Made by a program: the position numbers and the translations under genes | Part shown: positions 7,155 to 62,924 of the stretch, one piece after another | Position numbering within the stretch: position 1 is the first letter of the stretch | Layout of the letters: the number at the start of each line of letters is the position of its first letter | Notes under the pieces: model-generated | Seen by the model: the letters and a program-made list of their open reading frames with translations, nothing else | Database searches by the model: none | What the model was told of the DNA's origin: nothing | From: Kineosporia sp. NBRC 101731 | GTDB taxonomy: Bacteria > Actinomycetota > Actinomycetes > Actinomycetales > Kineosporiaceae | DNA length: 64,000 nt | Direction of reading: 5' to 3' | Assembly (NCBI RefSeq): GCF_030269305.1 | Contig: NZ_BSTC01000017.1 | Span: 1-64,000, forward strand

Positions 7155-8342
7155 ATGAGGGTCCTGTTCTCCGCCGCCCCACTGACGGGCCGGTCGTCGG
7201 CGCTCCTGCCGCTCGCCCGGGCCTTCGCCGCGCGCGGTGACCGGATCGCCTTCCTCTCCCCCTGCCTTCCGGGGCCCGCCGTACAGGAGCTGGGTTTCAC
7301 TCATCTGCACAGCGGGCCCGCCGGGGACCTGTTCCAGGGCCCCGGGGCCGCCGCCTCCCGCCTGGAGGCCCACGGCGAGCGTTCGCTGCACCTGGCCCAG
7401 GACTGGCGCCCCGACCTGGTGGTCAACGAACCGTACGACTTCACCGGTGTTTTCGTCGCCCAGGCACTGCGCCGCCCCCTGGCGACGGTGGCCAACGGCC
7501 CGGCGGCCCCGGCCGACTACGTCAGCGCCCTCACGGGCAGCGTCACGAACTGGTTCGCTCGCCATCGTCTCGCTCCCCCGGGCACGGTTCCCGCCGGGCA
7601 GTGGATGATCAACACTCGCCCCGAGGCCCTGGGTGCGTGGCCGGTCCCCTCAGGGGTGACCGCGCTGACGCTACGAGCTCCCCGCCGTGAGGGAGACGGC
7701 CTGCCACCGCCGACGGGCCGGCGTCCTCGCGTGGTGGTGGCTCTGGGCGCGCACTTCGGCGACCGCAGCACGATGCACCGGGTCCTGAACGGCCTCACCA
7801 CCGGCAGGCATCCGGAGATCGTGGTGCGCAGCAGCAGCCTCGCCGCCACCTCACCGCTCTCGAAGTACGTCACCCGGGCGACCTTCCGGCCCTCGTCCGA
7901 CCGGATCAGCCAGGTCGGGGCGGCGCTCGTGCACGGCGGTGGCGAGACCGTGCTGAACCTGCTCTCCCAGGGCATCCCGCTGGCCGTGCTGCCCCTGGGT
8001 CCGGGCCAGTTCGTCGAGGCGGTCCTGACCCAGCGGGCCGGCTGCGGGATCGCGGTACTGGTGCCGCCCGGTCAGCTGCGGCACCTCGACACCCTGAAGC
8101 TGCGGGCGGTCATGGCCGAGGTGATGGGCAACCCCTGGTACCGCGCGAACGCCGAGCGGGTGCAGCAGGAGATGGCCGCGATGCAGACGGCACCGGACGT
8201 GGCCGGGACGATCGCCCGCACCCTTGACCCGGGCCCCCGCATCCGGCCGGCCCGGATTCGGATGACGCCCCCGACCGGCACCGAAAAGATCGACCAGACG
8301 AGAGTTTCCCGCCGGTCCCTGGGGGTCAGTACACCTAGCTGA
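7155..8342 (+). CDS. GT1-like glycosyltransferase
   Basis: 395 residues from ATG 7155 (MRVLFSAAPLTGRSSALLPL); the earlier in-frame start at 7050 would add a leader without similarity. The N-terminal pattern (SAAP.GR...LLPLARAFAARGD) and the C-terminal nucleotide-sugar segment (VGAALVHGGGETVLNLLSQG, then PLAVLPLGPGQFVEAVLTQR) are those of UDP-glycosyltransferase/macroside glycosyltransferases with a GT-B fold. The usual HGG-x-GT is here HGGGET. Its acceptor is unknown. It converges on the lectin gene and the two coding regions overlap by 8 bases at their stops. Confidence 0.85.
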   Translation: MRVLFSAAPLTGRSSALLPLARAFAARGDRIAFLSPCLPGPAVQELGFTHLHSGPAGDLFQGPGAAASRLEAHGERSLHLAQDWRPDLVVNEPYDFTGVFVAQALRRPLATVANGPAAPADYVSALTGSVTNWFARHRLAPPGTVPAGQWMINTRPEALGAWPVPSGVTALTLRAPRREGDGLPPPTGRRPRVVVALGAHFGDRSTMHRVLNGLTTGRHPEIVVRSSSLAATSPLSKYVTRATFRPSSDRISQVGAALVHGGGETVLNLLSQGIPLAVLPLGPGQFVEAVLTQRAGCGIAVLVPPGQLRHLDTLKLRAVMAEVMGNPWYRANAERVQQEMAAMQTAPDVAGTIARTLDPGPRIRPARIRMTPPTGTEKIDQTRVSRRSLGVSTPS

Positions 8343-9297
8343 CGGTCCAGATGTGGTCGTCGTCCGGCGTGCAGGTGAACAGGGTCAAAGCCTGACCGGC
8401 GTTCTTGTTACCACCGTTGGTGTTCGAAACATCCAGGCACAGACCGCTCTTCACGTTCACAAGGTAGTAGCCACCACCCTGCGGCCGGGCCCGGAACATC
8501 TGGTTGTCCGACTCACCGGCCTGGCAGGGGCTCGCCAGCACCCCCGTGCTCTCGCCGACCGTGCCGGTACCGGGCAGGTCGAGGCAGTAGTTCGTCTTGA
8601 GGTTGCGGATCAGGTACTGCCCGTACTGCTCGACCAGCTGGAAGTCCTGGTTGTCGCCGACGCCGGGGATGCAGTCGTACTGGCTGACCGCGGCACCCGC
8701 CTGCGGCACGTCCGCACCCATCAGGTCGACACAGAAGCCGGTGCTGAGGTTCTTGATGACGCCCATCTCGGCGGGCGGGGCGGCCTGGCGGATCTTCGGG
8801 GTGGCCGGCTTCCGGTCGGCGACCTGATCCACCTGCTTGCGCTCGGTGCTCGAGCCGTTACCGGAATCGTCCTCGCTGCCGGACTTCTCGCCGGACACCG
8901 CGGCCTTTTTGGAAGCGACCGGGGAACTCGGCGAGGACTTGGGTGTGGGGGACGCCTTGTCGCTGTCGATCGTGGTGGTGTCGTCCGTGTCCGTCACCGG
9001 TGCGGGAGGCTGGGCGTCGAGCTCCTGGTTCTCGAGCAGGGCAGAGGCACCGTCGTTACGCCCGTCGTCGAACCGGGCGACCGAGTCGACCGCCATCGAA
9101 CCACCGACCACGGCGCAGGCCACGACGGTCACGAAACCGAGCACCGCCGCCGCACCCCTCAGGCCACGCGCGGAGAGACCGAACGGAAGACGGCGGTCCG
9201 AGTCCGTTTCCGGACCGGGCGAGGGAGACTCACCCAGATCAAGCTCACTCTCCGTGTGCTCTTCGGAACTCAGTTGACGGGTCTCCACGGAACCCAC
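8335..9297 (-). CDS. Membrane-anchored ricin-type beta-trefoil lectin
   Basis: 320 residues from GTG 9297; GAGAGG lies 7 bases upstream, which decides this start over 9342. An acidic N-terminus (about 1-45) precedes one membrane helix (GAAAVLGFVTVVACAVVGGS). A Ser/Thr/Lys/Asp-rich linker of about 100 residues follows. The last 130 residues form a ricin B/CBM13-like trefoil: VIKNLSTGFCVDLMG, LIRNLKTNYCLDLPG and LVNVKSGLCLDVSN mark three repeats, each with a Cys and an Asp. It probably displays a carbohydrate-binding domain outside the cell; no catalytic domain is present. Confidence 0.88.
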   Translation of the reverse strand: MGSVETRQLSSEEHTESELDLGESPSPGPETDSDRRLPFGLSARGLRGAAAVLGFVTVVACAVVGGSMAVDSVARFDDGRNDGASALLENQELDAQPPAPVTDTDDTTTIDSDKASPTPKSSPSSPVASKKAAVSGEKSGSEDDSGNGSSTERKQVDQVADRKPATPKIRQAAPPAEMGVIKNLSTGFCVDLMGADVPQAGAAVSQYDCIPGVGDNQDFQLVEQYGQYLIRNLKTNYCLDLPGTGTVGESTGVLASPCQAGESDNQMFRARPQGGGYYLVNVKSGLCLDVSNTNGGNKNAGQALTLFTCTPDDDHIWTVS

Positions 9298-61459: not shown

Positions 61460-61579
61460 CCCTGTTCCACCCCGGGGCGATCAGTGGCGGTGTCGTGGTG
61501 GAGCACCGCCCCGGCGTGGCCGCCCAACTACCCCTGCCGGCGTCCTAAACTTCCTCCCAACTCGCCCCAAGGGAGACCA

Positions 61580-62200
61580 ATGTCGCGCACCGAAGAAATC
61601 AGCTCAGAGGTCAAGGCGGTGAACGAGGCGGCCACCGAGGCCGGCACCCGCGCCGACGAGATCCTGGAATACGCCCGCGAGCAGATCGAGATCTCCGTCG
61701 AACACGGCTGGGACGGCGTCGGTCAGTCCATCAACATCGCCGGTGAGGCGCTGGAGAAGATCGCCGCGGAACTGTCCGGACTCGACGACGCCTTCGAGAG
61801 CGCGGCCTCCACACTCGACGAGATCACCGAGCAGATGAGCCGTTCCGAGGTCGCCCAGCACCTCTCCCTCAGCCTGACCGCGCTCGAGGGCACGCAGGAG
61901 ACACTGGAGAACACGGTCAGCCTCGTCGACGAGGCGATGCAGGGTGCCGAGCAGGCCGAGCACGAGGCTCTTGCCAACCGCCTCCAGCTCCTGCGCGAGA
62001 ACGTGGAAGGCCTCTTCGAGCGCCTGGCCCAGTCCCGCTCCGACATCGAGGCCGAGCACGAGGAAGCCCAGAACATGGGTCAGGGCGAGGGCGACGAGAC
62101 CCAGCGCGACCAGAAGCCGGACCAGGACCGCGACCGGGACGGCAGAGACGGCAGGGACCAGGACGACGACCAGAACGAAGGACGCGCACCGGGAAACTGA
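61580..62200 (+). CDS. Helical coiled-coil protein, first gene of a putative toxin cassette
   Basis: 206 residues from ATG 61580; GGGAGA lies 4 bases upstream. Residues 1-160 are almost purely alpha-helical and acidic, with heptad-like spacing (EEISSEVKAVNEAATEAGTR, LEGTQETLENTVSLVDEAMQ, LANRLQLLRENVEGLFERLA). The end is a highly charged QKPDQDRDRDGRDGRDQDDD tail. There is no signal peptide. The layout resembles helical WXG/LXG-type carriers that precede toxin domains in type VII systems. The stop overlaps the possible CTG start of the next gene. Carrier role is inference. Confidence 0.7.
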   Translation: MSRTEEISSEVKAVNEAATEAGTRADEILEYAREQIEISVEHGWDGVGQSINIAGEALEKIAAELSGLDDAFESAASTLDEITEQMSRSEVAQHLSLSLTALEGTQETLENTVSLVDEAMQGAEQAEHEALANRLQLLRENVEGLFERLAQSRSDIEAEHEEAQNMGQGEGDETQRDQKPDQDRDRDGRDGRDQDDDQNEGRAPGN

Positions 62201-62622
62201 GCGCGGGTGCTCCCCAGGGAGGGGGAGCGCCCGGCCCGGGATACCCGTGGCCCAAGGCGCCGGTGCCGGGAACGTGGGAGCACAGCCTCGGCCTCGATCC
62301 ACAGATCAAGAAGTTCCGCAACGGTGAGTACCGCACGGCAATCCGGGTCATGGAGGAACGGGACGTGCGACTCGTCCGGGCGGGCCGCGACGACAGCTGG
62401 GACTGGGTCGACGTCGACGGTCGCACGTACGACGCCGTCGGCGGTTTCCCCGGGCAGTACCTGGACGGGCAGTGGGACCATTTCTGCGGGCAGATCCGGC
62501 GTCACCTGGGTAAGGCCGAGCTGGTGCCGGTCGATGTGTCGCAGTTTCGGGCAGACCAAATAGAACGGGTTCAGAGGTTCATCGCACCGCTGGGCCCCCG
62601 AGTCTTCATGGTGGGTAGGTAG
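62197..62622 (+). CDS. Putative polymorphic-toxin C-terminal domain (CdiA-CT-like), probable CTG start
   Basis: 141 residues if started at CTG 62197 (CTGA overlap); a GTG at 62263 is the first standard start. A Gly/Pro linker (SAGAPQGGGAPGPGYPWPKA) leads into a small domain: SLGLDPQIKKFRNGEYRTAI, VRLVRAGRDDSWDWVDVDGR, TYDAVGGFPGQYLDGQWDHF and ADQIERVQRFIAPLGPRVFM. The YDxVG-x-F-x(8)W segment followed by KAELVPVDVSQF is like nuclease-type toxin domains at the ends of CdiA and related secreted proteins. I cannot verify this by search. The next gene overlaps it by one base. Confidence 0.6.
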   Translation: MSAGAPQGGGAPGPGYPWPKAPVPGTWEHSLGLDPQIKKFRNGEYRTAIRVMEERDVRLVRAGRDDSWDWVDVDGRTYDAVGGFPGQYLDGQWDHFCGQIRRHLGKAELVPVDVSQFRADQIERVQRFIAPLGPRVFMVGR

Positions 62623-62924
62623 TGGCTGGAACAATTTTTCTGCCCGACGGCCGTGACTGGGATGTGCGGTCCGGGATCTTCTTCTGGGCTCTCGACACCC
62701 TCGCCGAGCAGGTCCAGGACCAGGACCTGGCGTCCTGGCTCCGTGAGCTGTCTGAGAACAATGTCGGCCTTCTCGACGTGAAACAGCTCTCCAAGGCGCA
62801 GCAGCAGGATTTCGCGATCTCTGCTCAGCGACTCCCCAGCCTGGCCAGAACAGCGCTCCCCGAGGCCGGTGAATCCTTCTACGACCGAATGGAAGAACTG
62901 GCCGCGCTGGTCGCGGAATCCTGA
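62622..62924 (+). CDS. Candidate immunity protein
   Basis: 100 residues from GTG 62622, sharing the G of the toxin's TAG stop. It is small and acidic, with mixed strand and helix predicted by eye: TIFLPDGRDWDVRSGIFFWA, LDTLAEQVQDQDLASWLREL and LPEAGESFYDRMEELAALVA. Size, charge and tight coupling fit an immunity protein made with its toxin. No family recognised. A hairpin follows at 62971. Confidence 0.6.
   Translation: MAGTIFLPDGRDWDVRSGIFFWALDTLAEQVQDQDLASWLRELSENNVGLLDVKQLSKAQQQDFAISAQRLPSLARTALPEAGESFYDRMEELAALVAES

Follow-up and report, generated by a model that had tools for sequence, protein, structure and literature searches.

In the 64,000-nucleotide stretch of DNA from the soil bacterium Kineosporia sp. 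NBRC 101731 that was analysed here (referred to below as the window, and its genome as G000), we have identified a polymorphic toxin-immunity cassette whose toxin is probably attached to the carrier through programmed -1 ribosomal frameshifting, a reading to which we assign a probability of roughly 0.7. According to the proposed mechanism, most ribosomes would stop at the TGA at 62198 and release a plain helical carrier, and a minority, held by a hairpin and perhaps also by an upstream AAGGA element, would re-pair from GGA-AAC to GGG-AAA and read on at CTG 62197 to produce the carrier followed by a Gly/Pro linker and a tRNase-like toxin, from which the downstream immunity protein would guard the producer. 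We infer the slippage and its rate, the secretion, and the cleavage of RNA in rival bacteria, and suppose further that carriers with and without a toxin tip co-assemble. What is most likely new here is the way in which carrier and toxin are joined, i.e. the candidate -1 frameshift at the carrier stop.

Layout of the cassette and its junction

The cassette comprises three ORFs on the + strand, all confirmed as genuine in the window sequence. The carrier gene (61580..62200; 206 aa) begins with ATG, 5' of which lies AGGGAG, and ends with TGA at 62198-62200. The toxin ORF, in the -1 frame (62197..62622), encodes a Gly/Pro linker extending to about 62271 and then a PD-(D/E)XK tRNase-like domain, and the immunity gene (62622..62924) starts with GTG and encodes an acidic protein of 100 aa. 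This agrees with a preliminary description of the locus as three same-strand genes with overlaps of 4 and 1 bases, the third encoding a 100-residue acidic protein: the TAG of the toxin ORF and the GTG of the immunity gene do share one base, at 62622, and the 4-base overlap (CTGA, 62197-62200) requires that the reading of the middle ORF begin at CTG. The frame of the middle ORF is open back to 61747, and in the window it contains no ATG, GTG or TTG before the GTG at 62263..62265; in the corresponding frame of the related genome G006 none of these codons occurs before codon 52. The cassette is flanked by an acyl-CoA thioesterase gene on one side and by a gene for an LPG-synthase-like membrane protein on the other. 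A weak remnant of a membrane-permease gene (27 residues, E 0.057) was found at 61462-61545 of the window; G006, G007 and G008 have an intact copy of this gene 5' of the carrier. Here G007 is K. mesophila, whose copy of the locus is L068; the related named contigs belong to K. mesophila, K. babensis and K. rhizophila.

In the window, K. mesophila and G006 the carrier gene ends with CCG GGA AAC TGA, so that an in-frame heptamer of the type X XXY YYZ (G GGA AAC, 62191..62197) abuts the stop codon, and a slip back by one base at the heptamer leads into the toxin ORF at CTG 62197. Eight nucleotides upstream of the heptamer lies a Shine-Dalgarno-like AAGGA (62178..62182), a possible stimulator of slippage, which is also present 5' of the heptamer in K. 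mesophila; G006 is devoid of it and has GGGAG 14 nt upstream instead. The heptamer and the TGA are identical in the three species despite the diverged end of the carrier tail, although the retained GGA AAC alone is unremarkable, because codon use is conservative (90 of the 120 residues identical between the window and G006 carriers, excluding Met and Trp, have the same codon). GGGAAAC occurs in all three carrier orthologues that are accompanied by the toxin and in none of the three that are not. Among the 133 candidate ORFs of the window, which were taken with no overlap filter and include many spurious ones, the carrier alone has an in-frame XXX(AAA/TTT)Z heptamer within its last 10 codons.

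In-frame GGGAAAN is found at four of the 28 carrier loci that were read, exactly those with a C-terminal domain in the -1 frame, with a nominal p of 5e-5 that overstates the independence of the cases, because three of the four loci are orthologous to one another and the fourth seems to be damaged. The sole other A/T heptamer at these loci, GGGTTTC, occurs in two carriers. An examination of all 43 GGGAAACTGA sites in six genomes showed that nine of them follow an ORF of at least 80 codons from a start, 21 have at least 60 open codons in the -1 frame and five have both; only in the three cassettes does the site connect the end of a true gene with a -1 frame that is coding. The other two of the five were judged spurious, one in L088, where the -1 frame has a GC3 of 0.49, an ATG immediately follows the stop and the gene appears LanC-like by eye, and one in L091, where the -1 frame is itself the long gene. 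A sequencing error or fresh mutation at the junction was rejected on the grounds that three genomes have the same junction, and transcriptional slippage on the grounds that there is no long homopolymer in the sequence.

A hairpin of 12 bp with the loop AGGGAG (62204..62233) is separated from the heptamer by a 6-nt spacer and is present in both the window and K. mesophila, where the one differing base still pairs; a stable structure thus lies within the 5-9 nt downstream of the slippery site that are characteristic of programmed -1 frameshifting. When the 43 nt that follow the heptamer are folded, the z-scores are -3.2 in the window, -3.6 in K. mesophila and -0.54 in G006; over 80 nt they are weaker in the window and K. 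mesophila (-1.7 and -2.9), with -1.1 in G006, where another structure is preferred. Stems of at least 12 pairs at a distance of 5-9 nt arise in 224, 216 and 146 of 5000 synonymous recodings of the window, K. mesophila and G006 sequences, respectively, and the hairpin energy is equalled in 337/5000 recodings for the window and 278/5000 for K. mesophila; overall, 4-7% of recodings do as well as these two hairpins. In G006 the linker has diverged, and a stem of 12 pairs is possible 7 nt past the heptamer, with some pairs of changed type that do not amount to aligned covariation, because the 3' arm is shifted by three bases relative to the window arm; the energy of this stem is ordinary, 2669 of 5000 recodings being as stable. 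As support for frameshifting, the hairpin statistics are suggestive but not strong alone.

The carrier family and the toxin-immunity pair

The AF2 model of the carrier (pLDDT 86) comprises six helices (residues 3-42, 45-66, 69-80, 88-102, 105-125 and 129-176) and a disordered charged tail, as anticipated by the preliminary description, which had called the first product acidic and all-helical with a charged tail. A GWDG motif lies between helices 1 and 2, with W44 in the turn after helix 1 and D45-G46 at the start of helix 2. The fold matches are to generic helical bundles; the best 50 matches listed include no ESX chain, which excludes nothing. No match of the carrier to WXG100, LXG or T7SS_signal exceeds the cut-off, and WXG100 matched two of the 26 rows of the carrier alignment, from which two short-fragment loci had been left out, with a best E of 0.004.

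Orthologues of the carrier are present at this locus in all six Kineosporia genomes. Homologues were found at 28 places in six of the 13 genomes of the family, all of them Kineosporia, and a carrier profile matched 34 places, again in these six genomes; the six additional ones are partial matches outside the set that was read (e.g. G006:C2:463617-463925 and G009:C1:5585467-5586024). No match was found at E 1e-6 in the 390 other genomes of a 396-genome sample of the order, and a 396-genome sample of the phylum yielded four weak partial matches; across these samples convincing matches are confined to Kineosporia. Reading of the 28 loci revealed an in-frame C-terminal domain at 17, none at five, a short fragment at two and a C-terminal domain in the -1 frame at four. 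The carrier is accordingly the N-terminal helical domain of a Kineosporia family of polymorphic toxins, with the conserved N-terminal domain, differing C-terminal domains and adjacent immunity gene typical of such systems. DddA-like deaminases were detected by Pfam in two of nine scanned carrier proteins (E 8.5e-22 and 3.1e-17). The paralogues L015, L016, L021, L023, L024, L025, L027, L028 and L032 end in a common domain with text like GHGPQRHG...TDQQLTDRAL, which has no Pfam match in the scanned L015, L016 and L021 and is possibly an undescribed toxin domain. At L020 (G007:C1:544937-545443) the downstream gene resembles that of L031 and a mere remnant of the L031 C-terminal domain is left, by eye a case of a toxin deleted with its neighbour kept.

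The preliminary description had noted that the middle product recalls nuclease-type toxin domains, and this toxin guess holds up: the analysis predicts a PD-(D/E)XK tRNase-like toxin, with CdiA-CT E479 as the best match by both profile and fold. The fold match is supporting only, since the structure model is weak (pLDDT 52.8, built on two sequences). Against PF18664 (CdiA_C_tRNase) the window toxin scores 21.0 bits, below the curated cut-off of 26.5. A relative from G069 (locus L133), 45% identical to the window toxin over 124 aa, scores 26.9 bits and exceeds the cut-off. Acidic and His active-site residues of CdiA-CT E479 are given as E204, D229, D243, H275 and D285 in Table 1 of PMC9086364. 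K. mesophila, both pieces of the G006 copy and G069 all retain residues E44, D72, D79, H103 and D113 of the window toxin, and the H103-D113 spacing equals that of H275-D285 in E479, a comparison made at the level of sequence.

In G069 the toxin domain ends a 437-aa protein bearing a T7SS_signal domain (E=1.4e-11), so that it is in frame with its carrier, and the gene directly 3' of it is homologous to the third gene of the cassette (40% identity over 99 aa). The occurrence of the same pair behind another carrier, which bears out the toxin-immunity pairing suggested earlier, indicates that toxin and immunity genes move between carriers as a module. Both genes are found in the same three of 13 family genomes and adjoin in every one of them; neither has a match at E 0.01 in the other ten. 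In G069 (L138), two homologues of the immunity protein (7348-7650 and 8204-8512) lie behind one toxin gene, and the farther of them, 7348-7650, whose similarity was judged by eye only, is possibly an orphan immunity gene.

A search with PF18664 in 347 genomes of the order returned five matches, namely the three cassettes, G069 and G067, of which the last (L134) is probably spurious, as the ORF looks transporter-like by eye and the best E of the window toxin there is 0.013. In a 394-genome sample of the class the window toxin had two weak matches, in G853 (E 2e-4), whose locus was read, and in G1003 (E 6e-4). The distant relative in G853 (L140) follows pretoxin-like PILVHNAGG text near an ORF with Rhs-like repeats, as judged by eye, and the toxin family may thus also be carried by Rhs proteins; an immunity homologue suspected by eye next to it was dismissed at a BLASTP E of 0.46. 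A mobile source of the toxin was rejected, as the phage and plasmid collections contain no match to it at E 0.01.

Selection, loss and competing explanations

Between the middle ORFs of the window and K. mesophila, 14 codon changes are synonymous and 11 non-synonymous, compared with 6/21 and 2/24 in the other two frames, and random placement of the same 31 changes gives at least 14 synonymous codons in 0.6% of 20,000 trials. These counts indicate that the middle ORF is coding and not open by chance, and that the toxin frame has been under purifying selection between the two genomes. The coding -1 frame from the slippery site is conserved, with one nonsense codon in G006. As this is an in-frame TGA within the toxin ORF, the G006 copy is probably off, which leaves two intact cases out of three orthologous ones, 92% identical to each other (the window and K. 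mesophila). The immunity ORFs are open in all three toxin-holding species. TetR, thioesterase, carrier and membrane protein genes are common to the locus in all six genomes, and toxin and immunity genes are present in the window genome, K. mesophila and G006. Neither gene was found at the locus in G005 and G008, and in G009 (L123) weak collinear matches to both ends of the immunity gene (E 0.06-0.09) directly follow the carrier stop, the toxin being gone. In the three toxin-less genomes the heptamer is absent and the carrier is kept with its charged tail; the carrier is therefore conserved on its own, with the toxin as an optional extension.

The main rival explanation, which we consider unlikely, is the one put forward in the preliminary description, namely that carrier and toxin are separate polypeptides, the latter being made by re-initiation at CTG 62197, which overlaps the carrier stop in CTGA, or from an internal start at GTG 62263, which in the window could be supported by an AAGG five bases 5' of it. 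CTG is, however, a rare start codon, G006 has CAG in place of the GTG, and K. mesophila lacks the AAGG; besides, re-initiation needs neither a slippery heptamer nor a hairpin. That the reading runs on through the Gly/Pro linker suits a fusion, and both the 17 of 28 carrier loci with in-frame C-terminal domains and the G069 relative, in frame behind its carrier, argue against separate products. Of the earlier interpretation, the toxin part has been retained, and the separate-polypeptide arrangement, which missed the frameshift junction and the in-frame paralogues, has been demoted to a rival. We regard it as very improbable that the locus is a former in-frame fusion broken by a frameshift and now decaying, in which the slippery site would be a leftover or would mark where indels happen. 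Such decay would fit the nonsense codon in G006, the possible immunity relic in G009, the two genomes in which the locus has neither gene, and the damaged look of the paralogue L017, yet it is at odds with the purifying selection on the toxin ORF between the window and K. mesophila, with the open immunity ORFs and with the unchanged heptamer and TGA in three species.

Programmed frameshifting, the reading that we prefer, may have a second instance in the same genome. At L017 (G000:C4:562829-563736) a second carrier is followed by a DddA-like deaminase (PF14428, E=1.7e-14) in the -1 frame, and GGGAAAA is the only in-frame XXXYYYZ heptamer of the junction searched; a premature stop close to where the carrier should begin hints at possible damage to the locus, and the other five Kineosporia genomes yielded no orthologue. 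The wider proposal that -1 frameshifting is a general toxin-delivery device of Kineosporia, in which a self-assembling carrier is mostly plain and a fixed minority is tipped with at least two unrelated toxin types (tRNase-like, and DddA-like at L017), is tentative, and we consider it doubtful. If true, toxin tipping set by a slippery site would be the toxin analogue of Gag/Gag-Pol or G/GT stoichiometry.

Relation to known systems

As a rule, a polymorphic toxin is read as a single protein, or toxin and adaptor are encoded by separate genes. If the frameshift join proposed here is real, the ratio of toxin to carrier would be set at translation and most of the carrier would stay harmless, and such rationing of a toxin by slippage at a stop codon would be unusual. 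The toxin would also be hidden from gene finders, as a short ORF without a proper start, which suggests looking in the -1 frames behind other toxin carriers, and the stoichiometry of the carrier would become directly testable. In the open-licence PMC literature, judged by titles and the starts of abstracts, we found no paper joining frameshifting with polymorphic, type VII, contact-dependent or antibacterial toxins, with toxin-immunity pairs or with secretion-system effectors, and among the matches listed for Kineosporia and toxin none was on topic by title.

The cassette resembles the type VII polymorphic toxins (T7SS_signal PF21725, WXG100/LXG) in its helical N-terminal carrier with W-x-G between helices 1 and 2, its variable C-terminal domain and its immunity gene, and a homologue of its toxin is found on the T7SS_signal carrier of G069; it differs from them in that the window carrier has no above-cut-off match to their three signature domains and is convincingly matched in Kineosporia only. 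EccB (PF05108), the ESX gene that was searched, is present in all six Kineosporia genomes, and together with the type VII signal on the G069 relative this makes it likely that the carrier is secreted by a type VII-like route. With the contact-dependent inhibition (CDI) systems of CdiA-CT E479 and PF18664 the cassette shares the match in toxin-domain sequence and fold and the immunity gene directly downstream. In CDI, however, the toxin forms the C-terminus of a large CdiA exoprotein, whereas here the flanking genes encode a thioesterase and an LPG-synthase-like membrane protein, and the toxin lies out of frame behind a 206-aa helical actinobacterial carrier.

The closest parallels to the junction itself come from viruses. 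GGGAAAC directly before TGA has been reported as the predicted frameshift site in the tail genes of phage KL1 (PMC3483164), GGGAAA and GGGAAAA sites have been annotated in actinophages (PMC11749239), and a review cites G_GGA_AAC as a site of the archaeal virus HCTV-1 (PMC5009743). The same review describes this heptamer as very shifty for mammalian ribosomes but, for E. coli, counts as shifty those with AAG at their end, which weighs against the frameshift reading. Like the lambda-type G/GT tail assembly chaperone genes, the Kineosporia cassette has a GGGAAA-type heptamer near a stop codon and a short and a long product (predicted in this case), but the extension there is a tail chaperone, and here a toxin domain encoded in a toxin cassette on the chromosome.
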